31,139 bases of DNA, from NCBI GenBank assembly GCA_900758315.1, contig CAAERF010000386.1:1-31139 (forward strand), given 5' to 3'. Under the pieces are notes generated by a model, which did no database searches, was not told where the DNA came from, and saw only the letters and a program-made list of their open reading frames with translations. The position numbers were made by a program, and so were the translations under genes. Of this stretch, positions 22,424-31,139 are shown in pieces. Source of the DNA: an uncultured Oscillospiraceae bacterium. GTDB taxonomy: Bacteria; Bacillota; Clostridia; Oscillospirales; Oscillospiraceae. Positions within the stretch are counted from its first letter, which is position 1; each line of letters begins with the position of its first letter.

Positions 22424-22436
22424 GGACTGCAAAAAC

Positions 22437-22482
22437 AAAAACGGCTGAAAGCCTTGCTGAAACAAGGTTTTCGCCGTTTTTT
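22437..22482. terminator. Strong bidirectional terminator
   Basis: AACGGC-T-GAAAGCCTTG (22440-22456), loop CTGAAA, CAAGGTTTTC-GCCGTT (22463-22478): a 16-bp stem with one bulge and one G-U, flanked by A-rich and T6 tracts. It ends the regulator gene and, from the other side, the whole pst operon. Confidence 0.92.
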
Positions 22483-22498
22483 CATAAACGCATTTCTT

Positions 22499-23344
22499 TT
22501 ATATCGAATATTTGATCGCATACTGCGCCAGCGCCGTCTGATCGGCTTCCCCACAGGTCCACTCCTCCTTCAGGCTTTTCTTTTTCCAACGGGCCAGCCC
22601 GGTGCGCTCCATTCCGCTCTGAATCATCTGGGTCAGCTCCAGAATATCCTCGCAGTCCATGTACACACAGGAGAGAACATAACAGGCATCGGCGGAAATG
22701 GTACCATTTTTCAGACAGACCACCACACCAGTTTTCATCTGGAGCAGCAGGTCGGTGATCACCTTTTTCAGGGCCTGGGTCTGTGAGAGCTTTTCCAGGT
22801 CATTGGTATGATAGGCCTCCGAAAGCAGACTCATCAGTTCTCTCAGTGCCTCTGACACCACCAACAGGTCCCGCTTATCCTCCTCGGAGAGAAAGACCTC
22901 CAGCGCCGCTCCCTTTGCCGCCAGCTTCTCCAGCTTCACCGCGCAGGCGCCCAGCGCCTGAATATTGCCGATGGTCAGATTCAGCTTTACCTGCTGCAAA
23001 ACCTCCTCCTTTGACAGGTCGCTGCCGGGAATTCTGGTGATATAACCGCTCAGCTTCTCCTCGTACCGGTCCAACTCACGCTTTTTCTCCTGCACTGCCT
23101 GGGCCGCCTCCGGCTGGTACTGCTGGAACTGGCCCATTGCCAGCTCCAGGCTCTGCCGTGCCGTCTCAAACATGTACTCCGCCTGCCGACCGCACTCAGA
23201 CAGGGCAACCGAAGGGACGGACAGCAACACCTGATCAAAGAGGGCATCCTCGTCCTCAGTCTTTCGACACACCAGGAATACCGCTCGCAGAGCATACCAG
23301 AGTCCTGCCACCAGAATAATCGCAGCCACTATGATAAATCCCAT
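22499..23344 (-). CDS. Single-helix membrane protein with degenerate NptA-type PhoU domain
   Basis: The 281-aa product has one N-terminal membrane helix (residues 3-25) and then a helical domain (36-281). This domain aligns without gaps for about 200 residues to the PhoU-like tail of NptA (residues 338-584, gene at 27773): LLSVPSVALSEC against LLQSPSVAIREC, YHTNDLE against YEKNDVE, QMKT at the same place, and both end YxxKYS[LI]. The first PhoU metal motif FERLGDHA is here IQALGACA, so Glu, Asp and His are lost; the second (YERISDHC) is CEDILELT. AAAGGAG lies 9 nt before the ATG, 45 nt after phoU, so it is the last gene of the pst operon. It may be a non-metal PhoU homologue that holds or tunes the Pst-PhoU-PhoR complex at the membrane; this role is inference. 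Confidence 0.87.
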   Translation of the reverse strand: MGFIIVAAIILVAGLWYALRAVFLVCRKTEDEDALFDQVLLSVPSVALSECGRQAEYMFETARQSLELAMGQFQQYQPEAAQAVQEKKRELDRYEEKLSGYITRIPGSDLSKEEVLQQVKLNLTIGNIQALGACAVKLEKLAAKGAALEVFLSEEDKRDLLVVSEALRELMSLLSEAYHTNDLEKLSQTQALKKVITDLLLQMKTGVVVCLKNGTISADACYVLSCVYMDCEDILELTQMIQSGMERTGLARWKKKSLKEEWTCGEADQTALAQYAIKYSI

Positions 23345-23389
23345 CTTATTCCGCTCCTTTCGCTCCCTGTCTATCCGGCTCCTTCGCCG

Positions 23390-24043
23390 TCAGGTAATCG
23401 GCGCGTGGGTACCGGTGATGGAGTAAACCACCCACCCGGCGATATTCACCGCGTGATCGCCGATTCGCTCCAGATACTTGGACACCATCAGCAGATCCAC
23501 GCACACCGCGCCGGAATCCGGGTGCTGGGTCAAAATTCCGATCAGCTCTTCCCGCACCTTGGCGAAGAGCTCATCCACCACGTCGTCGTAGGCGATCACC
23601 GACTGGGCCAGCACCAGATCCTTGGATACAAAGGAGGCGATACTGTCCGTCACCATCTTGGTGACTGCCGAGGTCATCTTCTTGATGTGGATCCGGTTGA
23701 TCACTTCCTCGCCCCTGACAAAGCGAATGATCTCGGTGATGTCCGACGCCTGATTTCCGATCCGCTGCATGTCGTAGATCATCTTCAGGGCGGAGGAGAT
23801 AATCCGCAGGTCCCGGGCCACCGGCTGCTGCTGGAGGAGCAGCCGCATGCACAGGTTCTCCACACTCCGCTCCTTCCGCGCGATCTCATCATAGAGCTCG
23901 GCGGTTCTCTCAATGGCCTCATGGGGCCGTTCGGACTCAAACAGAGCCTGAGTGGCCGAGTTGATCGCGCTCTCGCACAGGCTTCCCATCTCGGTCAGCT
24001 CAGTATTCAGATGTGCCAGCTGTTCGTCAAAGCGATTTCTCAT
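23390..24043 (-). CDS. phoU: Phosphate signalling regulator PhoU
   Basis: The 217-aa all-helical cytoplasmic protein has the two PhoU repeats and links the Pst transporter with the PhoR kinase: with enough phosphate it keeps PhoR off and limits uptake. The second metal motif is intact (KYLERIGDHAVNIA, near the C-terminus). In the first the usual E...D is replaced by amides: DMQRIGNQASDI, where family members commonly have ERIGDQ. The ATG overlaps the pstB stop by one base (TGATG), so translation is coupled. The phosphate operon continues with a degenerate PhoU-like gene after 45 nt. Confidence 0.96.
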   Translation of the reverse strand: MRNRFDEQLAHLNTELTEMGSLCESAINSATQALFESERPHEAIERTAELYDEIARKERSVENLCMRLLLQQQPVARDLRIISSALKMIYDMQRIGNQASDITEIIRFVRGEEVINRIHIKKMTSAVTKMVTDSIASFVSKDLVLAQSVIAYDDVVDELFAKVREELIGILTQHPDSGAVCVDLLMVSKYLERIGDHAVNIAGWVVYSITGTHAPIT

Positions 24044-24795
24044 CAGCCAAACCTCCCGGTAATGTAATCTTCAGTCCGCTTGTCCTTGGGCATGGAGAAG
24101 ATCCGCTCCGTAGAGCCGTACTCCACCACCTCGCCCAGCAGGAAGAACGCCGTCATATCCGAGATTCGCACCGCCTGCTGCATGTTGTGGGTCACCATGA
24201 TGATGGTGTACTTCTGCTTCAGATCGGTCACCAAGTCCTCGATCTTGGAGGTGGACACCGGGTCCAGAGCGCTGGTGGGTTCGTCCATCAGCAGTACCTC
24301 CGGCTCTACCGCCAGGGCACGGGCAATACACAGCCGCTGCTGCTGTCCGCCGCTCATGCCCAGGGCGCTCTTCTTCAGCCGGTCCTTGACCTCGTCCCAG
24401 ATGGCCGCTCCCCGCAGGGATTTTTCTACAATGTCATCCAGCTGGGACTTCTTCCGGATGCCGTGGGTCCGGGGTCCGAAGGCCACGTTGTCATAGATGC
24501 TCATGGGGAAGGGATTGGGCTTCTGGAACACCATACCCACCCGTTTGCGCAGCAGATTCAGATCCATACTGCCGTAGATATCCTCGTTGTCCAGCTTCAG
24601 GGAACCGGTGATCCGGCAGCCCTCCACCAGATCGTTCATCCGGTTCAGGGACTTGAGCAGTGTGGATTTCCCGCAGCCCGAGGGACCGATCAGCGCCGTG
24701 ATCTGGTTGGCCGGCAGGTTCAGATTGACGTCCTTCAGGGCGTGGAAGTCGCCGTACCAGAGGTCCATATGTTCAATCGTAATCTTGTTCATCAT
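24043..24795 (-). CDS. pstB: Phosphate ABC transporter ATPase PstB
   Basis: The 250-aa ATPase powers the high-affinity phosphate importer. Visible motifs: Walker [10 protein letters not shown] (37-45), ABC signature MSGGQ (147-151), Walker B VLLMDE (167-172), and [12 protein letters not shown] typical of PstB. The start is uncertain by two codons: GTG 24798, ATG 24795 and ATG 24792 are in frame. I choose 24795 because AAGGA lies 8 nt before it and it overlaps the pstA stop as TGATG, the same coupling as pstB-phoU. Confidence 0.97.
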
Positions 24796-25724
24796 CACTG
24801 CAGTCCTTTCGTCAGCTTCTTGGCCACCAGTCCGGAGATCCCGTTGAGCAGCACCACCATGACCAGCAGCACCACCGCAGTTCCGTAGGCCTGATCGGTG
24901 TATAGGCCCTCGGAGAGCAGCAGGTACATGTGGACCGACAGGGTCCGGCCGGAGCTGAACAGGCTGTCCGCCACGCCGGGTACCGTGCCCGCGGTATACA
25001 TCAACGCCGCCGTCTCACCTACGACCCGGCCCATACCCAGGATGATGCCGGAGAGAATGCCAGGCACCGCAGGAGGCAGAACAATCCGGAATACGGTACG
25101 CAGTCTTCCTGCGCCCAGGGCAAAGCTGCCCTCCCGATAGGAATCGGGCACCGCTTTCAGCGCCTCCTCGGTTGTACGCATAATCACCGGCAGAATCATG
25201 ATGGACAGCGTCAGGCCGCCGGACAGGATGGAGTATTTGAACCCGCAGGCGATGACCAGCATCAGGTAGCCGAACAGGCCGTACACGATGGAAGGAATAC
25301 CGGACAGGGTCTCCGCCGTAATCCGCACCACACTGACCAGCTTACTGCCCCGCTTGGCATACTCCACCAGGTAGATGGCGGAAAAGACGCCCAGGGGTAC
25401 CGCGATGACCAGGGACAGGGCTGTCATAAACACTGTGTTGATGATGGCCGGCATCATGGACACGTTGACACTGTTGTACTCCCACTCGAACAGGCTCAGG
25501 TGCAGGTTGGGGATGCCCATCACCAGGATGTAGCCGATCAGTGCGATCAGCGCCCCCACAGTCACTACTGCCGAGAGCAGGACCAGGATCAGCACGGCCA
25601 GTGAGCCCGGCTTTCTCCGGTAGGCCGCCAGCTTTTGCAGCAGGTTCTGCCGGTTAATGGCTGCCGGCCGATTGGACAATCCGCCCTTCCCTACCGGCGC
25701 CGCCTGGACACTTTTTCCGCTCAT
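24795..25724 (-). CDS. pstA: Phosphate ABC transporter permease PstA
   Basis: The 309-aa permease has a long N-terminal cytoplasmic part (about 40 residues with [19 protein letters not shown]) and six membrane helices. ABC permease EAA loop: [40 protein letters not shown]. The [14 protein letters not shown] stretch is typical of PstA. The ATG overlaps the pstC stop (ATGA). It forms the membrane pore with PstC. Confidence 0.96.
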
Positions 25725-26572
25725 GCTTTATCCCTCCTCTTCAACAGGGAGAACGTCAGGTTGATAATCAGAATGAACACAAACAGCACAACTGCTGTCG
25801 CGATCAGCGCCTCCCGGTGCAGGCCGGTGGCATAGCCCATCTCCATGACGATGTTTGCCGTCATGGTACGTACGCCGCTGAGCGGACCGCTCGGAATCAC
25901 CGGCTGGTTGCCTGCCACCATGATCACTGCCATGGTCTCGCCGATGGCTCTGCCGATGCCCAGCACAATGCCGGCCAGAATGCCGCTCTTGGCCGCCGGC
26001 AGTACCGCCGCAAACACACTGCGCTCCCGGGTGGCGCCCAGGGCCAGGGCCCCTTCGTAGTAGCTCTCCGGCACCGCACGGATGGCGGACTCGGAGACGC
26101 CGATGATGGTGGGAAGGATCATCAGGCCCAGCAGCAGAGACGCGGTGAGCATATTCTTGCCGCTGCCGCCGAACAGATCCTGCACGATGGGCACGATGAC
26201 CATCAGGGCAAAGAAACCGTACACCACCGAGGGAATGCCCGCCAGCAGATCCACCGCCGGCTTCACGATCCGATACAGGGCCGGCGGACAGAACTCCGCC
26301 AGAAACACCGCGCACAGCAGCCCGATGGGCACACCCACGATGATGGCGCCGGCCGTGACATAGATACTGCCCACAATCATGGGGAAGATGCCGTAGATGT
26401 CGTTCAGGGGCTTCCACTGCTTCCCCAGCAGGAAGTCGGCTACGCCGATCTTCCCGATGGCGGAAAAACCGTTGGTGAACAGGAAGATGCAGATCAGGGC
26501 AACTGCCAGAATTGAGGTACAGGCGGCCAGCAGAAATACGGTTTTCATGCCGCGCTCTTTCAACTGTTTCAT
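25721..26572 (-). CDS. pstC: Phosphate ABC transporter permease PstC
   Basis: The 283-aa permease has six membrane helices, the segment AGIPSVVYGFFALMVIVP and the EAA loop SAIRAVPESYYEGALALGATRERSVFAAVLPAAKSGILAG. AGGAGGAG lies close before the ATG (26572); an alternative ATG at 26548 (MKTVFLL) is possible and would fit the first helix better, but has no ribosome site. A perfect hairpin lies between pstS and this gene. Confidence 0.96.
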   Translation of the reverse strand: MKQLKERGMKTVFLLAACTSILAVALICIFLFTNGFSAIGKIGVADFLLGKQWKPLNDIYGIFPMIVGSIYVTAGAIIVGVPIGLLCAVFLAEFCPPALYRIVKPAVDLLAGIPSVVYGFFALMVIVPIVQDLFGGSGKNMLTASLLLGLMILPTIIGVSESAIRAVPESYYEGALALGATRERSVFAAVLPAAKSGILAGIVLGIGRAIGETMAVIMVAGNQPVIPSGPLSGVRTMTANIVMEMGYATGLHREALIATAVVLFVFILIINLTFSLLKRRDKA

Positions 26573-26630: not shown

Positions 26631-27551
26631 TTACTGAGCCAGCTCAGACCAGTCGGTGGTCTCGCCGGTGAAGATGCTCTTGACCTGATCCTTGGACAGA
26701 TCTTCCACGGTGTTCTCGTTGTTGACGATCACAGCGATGCCGTCCAGTGCGATGACCTGGGACTTCAGGCCCTGGCTGGTCTCCTCTTCGCTCAGCTCAC
26801 GGGAGGCCATGCCGATGTCGCAGACACCTTCAATGGTGGAGGTCATGCCGGTGGTGGAGTCGCTCTCCTGGATGTCGATCTTGGCGTTGGCGTTGACTTC
26901 CAGATAGGCTTCCTTCAGCTTTTCCATGACCGGAGTGACGGAAGAGGAACCTGCTACTACGATGCTGCCCTCTGCACCGGAGGTGGTGAAGTCACCGGTG
27001 TTCTCCTGGCTGATGTAGCCGTTCTCTTCTACGACCTTCTGGCCGTCTGCGCTGAGGATGTAGTCGATGAAGTCCTGTGCCACATCGCTGACCTCATCCT
27101 TGGTGGCGATGTTGAAGGGACGGGAAACGGTGTAGGTGCCGTTCTTGATGTTATCGGTGGTGGCTTCCACGCCGTCAATCTTGACTGCCTTGACGGTGTC
27201 GTTCATGGAGCCCAGGGAGACGTAGCCGATGGCACTCTGGTTGCCCTGGATGCTGGCCAGCATGACAGCGGTGCTGTTGGTGATCTCAGCGCTGTCCGTG
27301 GTGTGGTCCACCTTGTTGCCGTTGGCGTCCTTTTCCTCGATGCCAAACAGCTCGATGAAGGCGCCACGTGTACCGGAACCGTCTTCCCGGGAAACGACGG
27401 TGATGCTGCTGTTTTTGGTGGTTGCTGCGTTGGCAGTGCTGCTGGTGCTGCTGTCACCGGTGGTCTGGCTGCCGGAGCTGCCACAGCCGACCAGTGCCGT
27501 TGCTGCCATCAGTGCGGACAAACTCAGTCCAATAATTTTTTTCATTTTCAT
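26631..27551 (-). CDS. pstS: Phosphate-binding lipoprotein PstS with permuted domain order
   Basis: The 306-aa lipoprotein (lipobox ALVGC, Cys23) binds phosphate outside the cell for PstCAB. The family motifs are all present but in the wrong order. Residues 50-181 hold what is normally the second half: VVSREDGSGTRGAF (52-65), then NAIGYVS-like SAIGYVSLGS, and DYILSADGQKVVEENGYIS. After a short linker (182-195) residues 196-306 hold the normal first half: VVAGSSSVTPVMEKL, DIGMASREL, GIAVIVN, IFTGETTDW, and the protein ends at WSELAQ. This is the arrangement of a circular permutation at the lobe hinge. ATG 27551 is chosen, with AAAGGAG 9 nt upstream; the ATG at 27557 is only 3 nt from it. Confidence 0.93.
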   Translation of the reverse strand: MKMKKIIGLSLSALMAATALVGCGSSGSQTTGDSSTSSTANAATTKNSSITVVSREDGSGTRGAFIELFGIEEKDANGNKVDHTTDSAEITNSTAVMLASIQGNQSAIGYVSLGSMNDTVKAVKIDGVEATTDNIKNGTYTVSRPFNIATKDEVSDVAQDFIDYILSADGQKVVEENGYISQENTGDFTTSGAEGSIVVAGSSSVTPVMEKLKEAYLEVNANAKIDIQESDSTTGMTSTIEGVCDIGMASRELSEEETSQGLKSQVIALDGIAVIVNNENTVEDLSKDQVKSIFTGETTDWSELAQ

Positions 27552-27612
27552 TACCATACACTCCTTTGAGTTGTCTCTTTTTTGTTTTTATCCCTCTTGC
27601 GGGAACACTGCT

Positions 27613-27670
27613 ATCATACCGGCGCCATGTTAAATCCAAAATCACGGTCAGGTTAAACCTATATCAAACC
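27613..27670 (-). promoter_or_regulatory. pstS promoter with candidate Pho box
   Basis: Minus strand, in order: GGTTTGAT (27670-27663), 3 nt, GGTTTAAC (27659-27652), 15 nt, GATTTAAC (27636-27629), 10 nt, -10 TATGAT (27618-27613). No good -35 is present, as expected for a promoter activated by PhoB/PhoP. The spacings are the same as before nptA. TTTAAC is close to the Bacillus PhoP half-site TTAACA with 11-bp period. Confidence 0.8.
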
Positions 27671-27712: not shown

Positions 27713-27747
27713 AAAAAATACCCGGCAGCTCTTTTGAAACTGCCGGG
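27713..27747 (-). terminator. Terminator of nptA
   Basis: Minus strand CCCGGCAG, 11-nt loop, CTGCCGGG, then TATTTTTT. It separates nptA from the pst operon, which has its own promoter. Confidence 0.9.
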
Positions 27748-27772
27748 CGTTCACCCTTCGTTTTTCTTCCGC

Positions 27773-29527
27773 TCACAGGGAGTATTTCACCTCATAGCGG
27801 TCATAGATGCTGTTAAATTCACTGTTTCCGTACTTCACGCCGTTGAGATATTTGTGGGCGTCAAAGCTGTTGTGGACCACCTCGATCACCGCCACGGCGA
27901 TGTTGGAGCAGTGGTCGGAAATCCGCTCGTAGTTGGACAGCAGATCGGAGAAGATAAAGCCCATCTCGATAGTGCAGACACCCCGCTGGAGCCGCTCGAT
28001 GTGGTTGGTTTTCATCTGGGCGGTCAGGTGGTCGATCACCTGCTCCAACGGCTCCACCTGGGCGGCCAGCTCCACGTCGTTTTTCTCGTAGGCGGTCACC
28101 GTGATGGAGAGAATCTCATCAATGGCCCGGGTCAGCACATCCAGCTCCCGCTGGGCCGCCGGCGTGAAGGCAATTCCCTTGTCATGGAGCTCTTTGGCCA
28201 CCTTGGTCAGATTGACCGCATGGTCGCCCAACCGCTCAAAGTCGCCGATGGCGTGGAGCATTTTGGAGATCACCTGAGAGTCCTCCTGGGACAGCGCCTG
28301 GGCGGACAGTTTCACCAGATAGGTGCTCAGCCGGTCCTCGAAGGCGTCAATTTCCTCCTCCGTCTGGAGCACCAATTCCGCTTTTTTCTCGCTGTAATGC
28401 CCGAAGAGTCCGCCTGCCAGATACAGGCTCTCCCGGGAAAGCTCCAGCATCTGCTTGCTGGCGTTGTTGCACTCCCGGATGGCAACCGACGGGGACTGGA
28501 GCAGCCGCTCATCCAGAAACGGTGTTTCCTCCGGAGACACCAGCTCGCCCTTTTTTCCGCCTGCCAGTCGCTCGGTCACCCACAGCAGATACTTGGAGAA
28601 AGGCATCAGCAGAACCGTCGTGGCAATGTTGAATACAGAGTGCGCCAGCGCGATGGTCACCGGCGAGACTGCCGTGTCCCAGAAGGGCAGTCCGATCAGC
28701 CAGTTTGCCAAGCAGAGAATGGGCAGCCACACCACCGTGCCCAGCACGTTGATGAGCACATGCACTACACCCACTCGCTTGGCCTGGATGTTGGTCCCGA
28801 TACAGGAGATCAGAGCAGTGACGCAGGTGCCGATGTTCTGGCCCATGATGATGGGAATGGCCATGCCGTAGGAGATGCCGCCGGTGAGGGACAGGGCCTG
28901 CAAAATGCCGATAGAGGCCGCAGAGCTCTGGATCACACCGGTGACGATGGCGCCCACCGCCACGCCGACCAACGGCTGGTTGAACTTGGTCAGCAGCTCG
29001 GCAAACAAAGGGGAATCTGCCAGGGGACTGACCGCCTCGGTCATCATCTTCATCCCGTAGATCAGCACCGCAAAACCGACAAACACCGTGCCGATGCTTT
29101 TCTTTCGGTCGTTGTTGGAGAGCATGACCATCAAAATGCCAATGAGGGCGATAATCGGCGAAAAGTTCTCCGGTTTCAGCATATTGATCCAGATACTGTC
29201 ACTCTGGATGCCGGAAAGGCTCAAAATCCAGGAGGTCAGCGTGGTGCCGATATTGGCGCCGAAGATCACGCTGAGGGTCTGGGAAAACTCCATAATACCT
29301 GAGTTGACCAGGCCCACCAGCATCACGGTGACTGCGGACGAGGACTGGACCGCAATGGTAATCACCGCGCCAAGGATAATGCTGATCACCGGGTTGGACG
29401 TCATCTTCTTCAGCAGGTGCTCCAGCTTGCCGCCCGCCATCTTCTCCAGACTGCCCGACATCACATTCATGCCAAACAGGAAGAACGCCAGGCCGCCGAT
29501 CAGGGTAATGAACGAGAAAATAGTCAT
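27773..29527 (-). CDS. nptA: Na+/phosphate cotransporter with C-terminal PhoU-like domain
   Basis: The 584-aa membrane protein takes up phosphate with sodium. The two inverted repeats of the Na/Pi-cotransporter family have the QSSS motifs: QSSSAVTVMLVGL (61-73) and QSSAASIGILQAL (200-212). About eight helices are followed by a cytoplasmic PhoU-like domain from about residue 338 with intact metal motifs DFERLGDHA and NYERISDHC. AAGGAG lies 9 nt before the ATG. It is a low-affinity partner of Pst, here in the same regulon: its promoter has the same repeat set as pstS, and PhoR lies directly upstream. Confidence 0.96.
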   Translation of the reverse strand: MTIFSFITLIGGLAFFLFGMNVMSGSLEKMAGGKLEHLLKKMTSNPVISIILGAVITIAVQSSSAVTVMLVGLVNSGIMEFSQTLSVIFGANIGTTLTSWILSLSGIQSDSIWINMLKPENFSPIIALIGILMVMLSNNDRKKSIGTVFVGFAVLIYGMKMMTEAVSPLADSPLFAELLTKFNQPLVGVAVGAIVTGVIQSSAASIGILQALSLTGGISYGMAIPIIMGQNIGTCVTALISCIGTNIQAKRVGVVHVLINVLGTVVWLPILCLANWLIGLPFWDTAVSPVTIALAHSVFNIATTVLLMPFSKYLLWVTERLAGGKKGELVSPEETPFLDERLLQSPSVAIRECNNASKQMLELSRESLYLAGGLFGHYSEKKAELVLQTEEEIDAFEDRLSTYLVKLSAQALSQEDSQVISKMLHAIGDFERLGDHAVNLTKVAKELHDKGIAFTPAAQRELDVLTRAIDEILSITVTAYEKNDVELAAQVEPLEQVIDHLTAQMKTNHIERLQRGVCTIEMGFIFSDLLSNYERISDHCSNIAVAVIEVVHNSFDAHKYLNGVKYGNSEFNSIYDRYEVKYSL

Positions 29528-29564: not shown

Positions 29565-29622
29565 AGTTTACCGGATCAACGTTAAATCTATTATCTCCAT
29601 TCTGTTAAATCCATGTTAAATC
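29565..29622 (-). promoter_or_regulatory. nptA promoter with candidate Pho box
   Basis: Minus strand, in order: GATTTAAC (29622-29615), 3 nt, GATTTAAC (29611-29604), 15 nt, GATTTAAC (29588-29581), 10 nt ending CCGG, -10 TAAACT (29570-29565). All three octamers are identical, and every distance equals that at pstS. The first octamer starts where the phoR terminator stem ends. Confidence 0.82.
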
Positions 29623-29658: not shown

Positions 29659-31008
29659 TTACGCTTTCGGGAATCGGATGGAGATCACTGTCCCCTTTCC
29701 CACTTCACTTTCCACTTCGATGGCCGCGTTATGATAGGCCACCCCGTGCTTGACAATGGACAGGCCCAGACCTGTGCCTCCCACTTCCTTGGAGTGGCTC
29801 TTGTCCACCCGGTAGAAGCGCTCAAAAATCCGGTCCAGCTCTGCGCTTGGAATCCCGATGCCCGTGTCAGCTACCTCCAGGACTGCCCATCCGGGTTCGT
29901 CCGTCACGGACACTGTCACAGTGCCGTTCTCCTTGTTGTATTTAATGGCGTTGTCGCAGAGGTTGTAGACGATCTCGTCGATAATCTGCTCTACCCCTTT
30001 GAAAACCGCGTGGGTTCCCCTGAGGACAAACCGGATATGTTGTTTTTGGGCCGCATGCTCCAGATTGGAGAGCACGCCCTGACAGCATTCATACAGGTCG
30101 ATCTCCGCCTTCGGAGGCTGCAGCTCCTTGCTCTCCAGCTGGGAGAGCTGAATGATGTCCCCTACCAGCGTGATCAGGCGCTGGGCCTCGTCGTAAATCT
30201 TGCCGGAGAATCGGCTGATGTCCTCGGGTCTCGCCAGACCGTCCCGGATGATCTCCGCGTAACCGGAGATGGAAGTCAGCGGCGTCTTGAGCTCGTGTGA
30301 CACGTTGGCGGTGAACTCCCGCCGCATGGCGTCCTGCTTGGCGTGCTCCAGCTTCAGCTCGTTCATCTGCCGCTGAATCTGCCGGTTCTGGCCGTTGATT
30401 CGGCGCACCAGCGGCTGAAGCTCGGGATAGACATCCCGCTCGTCCGGTGCCTCCAAGTCGATCCGGTTGATGGGCTCCGTCACGCTTTTGGACACTCGGG
30501 AGGCCAGGATCACCGACAGCAGGATGGCCAGGAGCAGCACTGCCACCATAGAGTAGAACATGCCCACAATCAGGGTCACTGCGGTATACTGGGTACCGGA
30601 CACCCGGATCACCGTGCCGTCCTTGAGTCGAATAGCGTAGTTGGTGGTCTTCTCCGACAGGGTATCCGAATAGCGGCTACTCTCACCAACCCCCTCGGTC
30701 AGGGCCTGCTGAACCTCTTCCCGGTTCTTGTGGTTGCCCATCTCGTCCGGATCGGCTACGCTGTCGTAGAGCACGGTGCCATCGGTGTCAATCCAAGTGA
30801 CCCGAGTCGTGCTGGTGGTCTGGCGGTGCCGGAGAAAGTCAATCCCGTTTTCCTCCACTGCCGCCGCTACATAGCTGGCCTCATCTCTGATCTCCGCGTT
30901 GTGTTCCGCAGAGAAGTAGCTGTACAGCGAACACAAAGTCAGGGCAATACAGGACACAAAGACCACCATGGCCACCAGGAAAATGTGCTTGAAAATCTTA
31001 GTTTTCAA
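29659..31008 (-). CDS. phoR: Phosphate regulon sensor histidine kinase PhoR
   Basis: The 449-aa kinase has helix 1 (about 11-32), an extracellular sensor part (33-140), helix 2 (144-170), a HAMP-like linker, the H-box [12 protein letters not shown] with the phosphorylated His238, the N-box [13 protein letters not shown], and the G boxes [34 protein letters not shown]. It phosphorylates PhoB/PhoP when phosphate is scarce. The start is the TTG at 31008: GGGAGGA lies 7 nt before it, and it overlaps the end of phoB by 11 nt. The longer open frame upstream of it runs through phoB. Confidence 0.94.
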
Positions 31009-31139
31009 CCGCTTTTCCTCCCAGCTTGTAGCCCACGCCCCGCACGGTCTCAATCAGCTCCCCGGCGGGACCCAGCTTCTGGCGCAGCGTCCGGATATGC
31101 ACATCCACCGTGCGGTTTTCCCCGTCAAAGGAGTAGCCC
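30998..31139 (-). CDS. phoB: Response regulator PhoB/PhoP (OmpR family), C-terminal end only
   Basis: The window edge cuts the gene; the last 46 residues are visible. [22 protein letters not shown], then [18 protein letters not shown], is the end of an OmpR/PhoB winged-helix DNA-binding domain with the recognition helix ([12 protein letters not shown]) and the wing (TVRGVGYKL). The reading frame ends at TAA 31000-30998, inside phoR. The gene pair and the downstream phosphate genes make PhoB/PhoP the natural call, though other OmpR members look alike at this end. Confidence 0.9.

Follow-up and report, generated by a model that had tools for sequence, protein, structure and literature searches.

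A membrane-anchored PhoU-type protein of NptA kinship, with no intact metal motif, at the end of a pst operon from an uncultured Oscillospiraceae bacterium

The pst operon in a 31,139-nt stretch of DNA from an uncultured Oscillospiraceae bacterium (GenBank assembly GCA_900758315.1, contig CAAERF010000386.1; hereafter the window) ends with a gene for a 281-amino-acid protein, here called X, which is very probably a real, conserved membrane protein of the PhoU type that descends from the tail of the phosphate transporter NptA. Our overall explanation, in which we have somewhat less than even confidence, is that this membrane-held NptA derivative without metal motifs eases a PhoU-type brake during phosphate starvation.

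The genes of the region follow one another in the order phoR-like, nptA, pstS, pstC, pstA, pstB, phoU, and X, with nptA located about 4.4 kb upstream of X (Table 1). The coordinates of X in the initial annotation are correct, X being encoded on the minus strand, and its placement of X as the closing gene of the pst operon is borne out by a ribosome-binding-site-like sequence in the 45-nt gap after phoU and by a terminator-like hairpin behind X. This hairpin is strong and has a T tract; positions 22425-22498, directly after X, fold with -25.5 kcal/mol (z -3.88), a value equaled by none of 200 shuffles, and a terminator match on the plus strand is found at 22446-22473.

Table 1. Features of the window in the region of the pst operon.
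Feature	Position	Strand	Basis
X (281-aa membrane-anchored NptA-type PhoU domain protein, no intact metal motif)	22499..23344	-	ORF, NptA match, PF01895
X membrane helix, residues ~1-26 (hydrophobic peak 1-19)	23267..23344	-	Kyte-Doolittle, 18/18 rows
X PhoU-type domain, residues 36-281	22502..23239	-	
AAAGGAG, ribosome-binding-site-like, before X within the 45-nt phoU-X gap	23354..23360	-	Sequence
Terminator-like hairpin 3' of X, common to the convergent plus-strand gene	22437..22481	-	Fold and terminator match
phoU	23390..24043	-	TIGR02135, 190.8 bits (cut-off 130.25)
pstB	24043..24798	-	ORF; tblastn identity 56-79% at six pst loci
pstA	24795..25724	-	ORF; tblastn at six pst loci
pstC	25721..26572	-	ORF; tblastn at six pst loci
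pstS	26631..27557	-	ORF; tblastn at six pst loci
PHO-box-like GATTTAAC before pstS	27629..27636	-	Four exact copies in the whole window, this one included
Terminator-like hairpin in the nptA-pstS gap	27720..27748	-	12 pairs, then ATTTTTTATG
nptA, Na/Pi cotransporter with PhoU tail (~331-584), X paralogue	27773..29527	-	PF02690, 199.9 bits; PF01895, 89.2 bits
Three PHO-box-like GATTTAAC before nptA, including a pair with 11-bp spacing	29581..29622	-	Motif search
phoR-like sensor kinase (sCache-like, HisKA, HATPase)	29659..31053	-	Pfam

The PHO-box-like element GATTTAAC is present in four exact copies in the 31-kb window, compared with 0.30 expected by chance, and it is placed only before nptA (three copies) and pstS (one copy). 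An exact TTTAAC-N5-TTTAAC lies at 29604-29620 before nptA; the accessible text on Streptococcus pneumoniae describes a Pho box with a similar 11-bp repeat design (PMC4913102). Since the element stands at both nptA and pstS, the motif match supports one shared regulon for nptA and pst-phoU-X, and the three PhoU-type domains that had been placed in one regulon are indeed found behind two promoter regions with PHO-box-like elements in common. Because a terminator-like hairpin separates nptA from pstS, nptA and pst-phoU-X probably represent two transcription units. The Pfam matches of the phoR-like kinase include a single-Cache-like domain but none to PAS, so that a PhoU-PAS contact of the Escherichia coli type may not apply.

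The kinship of X with the NptA tail was recovered by several comparisons. The ungapped alignment of about 200 positions on which the initial annotation was built comprises 206 positions (X 29-234, NptA 331-536), of which 66 (32%) are identical and 115 positive (108 bits, E=5e-31). The Smith-Waterman score of the two proteins was 281, as opposed to a mean of 37.6 (sd 6.5, maximum 70) for 500 shuffles, and in the profile-profile comparison X 32-281 was paired with columns 336-586 of the NptA profile at a probability of 99.5, reaching both C termini. In the window X and NptA end with KYSI and KYSL, respectively, and X has retained the NptA linker motif with the invariant residues L40, V43, P44, A47, L48, E50, and C51. 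The general PhoU profile PF01895 matches X with 28.9 bits, above its curated cut-off of 23.5, whereas the score for the PhoU equivalog TIGR02135 (14.7 bits) is below the cut-off of 130.25, and the Smith-Waterman score of 48 with the PhoU of the window is near background (shuffle mean 35.5, maximum 58). PF02690 (Na_Pi_cotrans), which is readily detected in the window NptA, is absent from the matches of X, in line with the proposal of a detached NptA-type domain whose transporter part is gone. X thus shares with the NptA tail the ungapped 32% identity, the linker motif, and the C-terminal end but differs from it by one membrane helix in place of the transporter and by the absence of any intact E(D)xxxD motif. 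In a search of 21 further loci, every X match falls on an NptA tail.

Phylogenetic trees were based on 43 rows, i.e., 10 of the 18 X rows, 11 close NptA tails, 15 other NptA tails, and 7 PhoU proteins; 7 long rows were dropped for a reduced tree, and neither tree contains PitR. In the full tree X is monophyletic (100/100) and belongs to a clade with the 11 closest NptA tails (100/100), and the clade of X and close NptA tails received a support of 99/100 in the reduced tree; X clusters with NptA tails and separately from the PhoU clade. The stem of X is long, with 3.13 (full tree) and 3.66 (reduced tree) changes per column, compared with at most about 0.3 for branches inside X. A position of X outside all NptA tails was rejected by the AU test for the full set (p=0.025) but not for the reduced set (p=0.175), and a clade of the close NptA tails without X was likewise not rejected (p=0.284). 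Tree support and AU outcomes together indicate that an NptA origin of X is well supported and that an origin inside this lineage is likely, if unproven.

The replacement of the transporter by a single membrane helix, as initially annotated, was recovered in all 18 X rows. The best Kyte-Doolittle 19-mer reaches 2.06-2.68; it starts at the first residue (1-19) in all rows but one of the 18, where it covers 8-26, while past residue 40 the best hydrophobic window is just 1.09-1.80, leaving one clear hydrophobic segment. This segment is invariant in 13 of its 26 columns (10 representatives), and from R20, R27, and K28 of the window protein the C-terminal side of X is expected to be cytoplasmic. The helix of X showed no match to the helices of NptA above shuffles (185 and 283 of 500 equal or better). 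An origin from the second helix of PhoR was considered but is not proposed here: the score of 42 (shuffle mean 25) was the best of six comparisons, and the likeness, confined to X residues 8-25, fades in the diverged orthologue P0015, where 304 of 1000 shuffles were as good.

The most conspicuous changes of X concern the metal motifs. E(D)xxxD is the pattern named for PhoU in the accessible part of a study on Staphylococcus epidermidis (PMC5686610). The NptA tail contains four such motifs (E390-D394, E431-D435, E495-D499, and E534-D538), which are invariant in all 22 aligned rows (22 of 120 listed NptA proteins, from 8,000 matches); none of the four is intact in the 18 X rows, where they typically read KxxxD, QxxxA, KxxxT, and ExxxE. 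In motif 1, E390 is replaced by K in 17 rows and Q in one, while D394 is retained in all 18; in motif 2, E431 has become Q (17) or H (1) and D435 A (13), V (2), T (2), or S (1); in motif 3, K (15), Q (2), or R (1) stands for E495 and T (13), N (2), A (1), S (1), or V (1) for D499. Motif 4 has kept its acidic character, with E534 unchanged in 17 rows (G in one) and D538 exchanged for E in all 18. The counterparts of E390, E495, and D499 in the window protein are K88, K193, and T197. Replacements beside the motifs are fixed in all 18 rows for H436 (C134), N439 (K137), D528 (C226), and N532 (D230), and R535 corresponds to D233 in 17 rows and to A in one. The latter arginine aligns with R201 of E. 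coli PhoU, so that the Arg of helix alpha-6 is reversed to Asp in X; an R201A exchange is cited, in the portion of the source at hand, as affecting signaling (PMC12301784).

The initial annotation had read the first motif as changed from FERLGDHA to IQALGACA and D and H of the second as changed to E and L, and both readings are correct. Its restriction of the metal loss to the first site, which is altered as described, was too narrow, given that the partner motifs have changed as well, and the comparison across orthologues shows the replacements to be largely fixed in the 18 X rows. We take the four motifs to belong in pairs to metal sites 1 and 2; since none of them is intact, both sites are altered, and the aligned motif columns show damage to metal site 2 in addition to site 1. 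It is likely that X has no normal PhoU metal sites, but X may still bind some metal because E232 and E236 (site 2) and D92 (site 1) remain acidic. The first motif of the PhoU encoded in the window reads QRIGN, compared with ERxGD in six other PhoU proteins, and its second motif reads ERIGD, so that two of the three PhoU-type domains encoded here have a weakened first site.

A PhoU fold of two three-helix bundles was predicted for X when NptA and PhoU rows were included in the alignment, and the five models made with these helper rows had means of 60.4 to 82.3. With rows of the X family alone the predicted fold was poor (pLDDT 47), without a confident PhoU fold, and a comparison of the X family profile with solved structures returned no PhoU up to E=10. 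A lack of PhoU fold, which had been named as an observation that would speak against the annotation, is thus seen only for predictions from the X family itself and not for those with NptA and PhoU rows.

The protein search detected 17 clusters of relatives with 64-98% identity, all 280-281 amino acids long, within length limits by which fragments of less than about 155 amino acids would escape. A family profile search, which scored the 7,995 candidates with the most shared words, recovered no relatives beyond these 17 and no intermediates. X was not found in GTDB r220 (84,980 species) with six window peptides or two family peptides, nor in IMG/VR at the sensitivity of the scan; scans of IMG/VR for PhoU and NptA also found none. 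The sole named NptA among the 120 listed stems from an Oscillospiraceae metagenome-assembled genome (P0097; tail identity 73%). With 17 clusters only and none from the GTDB r220 or IMG/VR scans, X is a narrow family, probably of one group near Oscillospiraceae. Its conservation is patchy: among 10 representatives of the 18 rows, 113 of 281 columns are invariant, including 7 of the last 11 but just one of the 22 from column 249 to column 270, a pattern of constraint that fits a working protein.

With respect to function, we favor a reading in which X relieves a brake. The sequence comparisons support a descent of X from the PhoU tail of NptA, probably in this lineage or close to it; X lost the transporter part, gained a single membrane helix, and diverged heavily, with loss of the metal motifs and gain of cysteines, and it has been held under constraint since. 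X would be produced along with PstSCAB-PhoU as part of the PhoP response to a lack of phosphate. It would be located at the membrane, its domain facing the cytoplasm, and would be unable to switch via metal bound at E(D)xxxD motifs in the normal way. K88 and K193, lysines at the place of motif acids in both halves of the domain, may replace the metal charge and fix the state of the bundles. X may pair with, or occupy the docking place of, the NptA tail as its closest relative or of PhoU and would thereby, during starvation, ease the braking of phosphate import and of PhoR by PhoU-type domains. An action of X as an antagonist or decoy towards the NptA tail or PhoU is conceivable but somewhat doubtful, and the complete scenario of a starvation-induced, lysine-locked, metal-free membrane pseudo-PhoU, by which the NptA tail or PhoU is displaced and import as well as PhoR freed, is unlikely in all its parts. 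X may cap or compete in a Pst-PhoU-PhoR complex, as the initial annotation proposed; kinship, linker, and C-terminal motifs of X point to NptA at least as much as to PhoU. According to the accessible text on Staphylococcus aureus, the PhoU domain of NptA represses PhoPR, and an NptA-reliant strain without this domain grows less in alkaline medium at increasing phosphate, in which the authors see a possible control of NptA import by the PhoU domain (PMC13170248). In the available part of a two-hybrid study of S. aureus, PhoU and PitR gave significant signals only with themselves, and no signal was seen for NptA/PhoR or PhoU/NptA, with a caution of the authors on negatives (PMC11705898); in view of this self-only pairing, cross-pairing of PhoU-type domains is not to be assumed.

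Cysteines offer a different explanation, in which X is a re-tooled metallo- or redox switch that signals to Pst or NptA through a cysteine site binding zinc or an iron-sulfur cluster or acting as a thiol switch. Seven cysteines (26, 51, 134, 210, 221, 226, and 231) are invariant in all 18 X rows, and five of them (26, 134, 210, 221, and 226) distinguish X from the 22 NptA rows, of which none has a counterpart; C134 and C226 occupy the columns of NptA H436 and D528, C26 lies within the new membrane segment, and 7 of 8 cysteine columns are invariant in the 10 representatives, compared with 113 of 281 over all columns. However, C51 (Cys in 22 of 22 NptA rows) and C231 (9 of 22) are not new, C518 and C540 of NptA are absent from X, and cysteines are often conserved for packing. 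The predicted model assigns C134 to core helix 3 and C221-C231 to core helix 6. We regard such a switch as rather improbable. A similarly low probability is assigned to X as an adaptor of the PhoU type, held at the membrane, whose sole target would be the Pst transporter, as a constitutive import brake and not as an antagonist. That X immediately follows phoU in the operon would suit this role, and PhoU1 of S. pneumoniae is reported, in the text available, to tune its own transporter without direct control of pst1 transcription (PMC4913102), but X groups with NptA tails and not with PhoU and has neither the four intact motifs nor the alpha-6 arginine.

The retained linker and C-terminal motifs of NptA could also mean that X serves NptA as a factor for stability or assembly, a non-signaling subunit bound via the shared linker and tail surfaces; this has a slim chance of being correct, given that X sits with pst and not with nptA and that a terminator-like hairpin divides the transcription units. 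The order of genes at other loci bears on a further possibility, that X is a functionless, decaying nptA duplicate left in place after phoU. Six of the 21 loci searched carry phoU (L004, L015, L016, L017, L018, and L021), and more than 1 kb after phoU is visible in four of them (L004, L015, L016, and L018); in one of these four, L004, the first gene matched behind phoU is nptA, at a distance of about 290 nt. From this order X may go back to a copy of nptA located behind phoU, an origin suggested by the single locus L004. Positions 1-6160 of L004, a faecal contig labeled 'Bacteriophage sp.', show the order pstA-pstB-phoU-nptA-phoR, and several 'Bacteriophage sp.' records contain bacterial phosphate genes. 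The long stem of X is likewise compatible with decay, but none of the 17 relatives detected is truncated, the motif replacements are fixed, half of the columns in the membrane helix are invariant, as are 7 of the final 11 of the protein, a ribosome-binding-site-like sequence is present, and the GC3 of X (0.71) and its codon composition are close to those of its neighbors (GC3 0.77-0.83). A pseudogene is thus disfavored, and decay is very improbable. Orthologues are rare, as had been foreseen for a decaying NptA fragment, yet none of the 17 clusters is broken and many altered motif columns are conserved.

Among known systems, the PhoU of Pst (TIGR02135) differs from X, which scores far below the cut-off, has a membrane anchor, falls into a separate clade, and has lost the motifs. 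PitR is, like X, an additional PhoU-like regulator beside PhoU (PMC13170248), but it is tied to PitA, and PitR of S. aureus was purified as a dimer according to the part of the report available (PMC11705898). S. pneumoniae and S. epidermidis resemble the organism studied here in having more than one PhoU-type protein per cell, PhoU1 and PhoU2 (PMC4913102, PMC5686610). By contrast, the accessible sections state that the metal sites are conserved in all homologues aligned with the S. epidermidis proteins (PMC5686610), and those on the two species describe no membrane-anchored tail without motifs (PMC4913102, PMC5686610). Titles and abstract openings listed in searches of the open-licence literature indicated no detached or membrane-anchored PhoU tail of NptA.

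A survey of 926 genomes from 2026 found each PhoU clade to be tied to its own transporter (PMC13170248). X, in comparison, is a domain of the NptA clade without a transporter, residing in a Pst operon after the loss of its metal motifs. It may be regarded as a natural experiment on the purpose of the PhoU metal sites and on the need of PhoU-type regulators for their cognate transporter. If X indeed displaced the NptA tail or PhoU, it would break the rule of one clade for one transporter, with an NptA-type regulator working inside a Pst operon.
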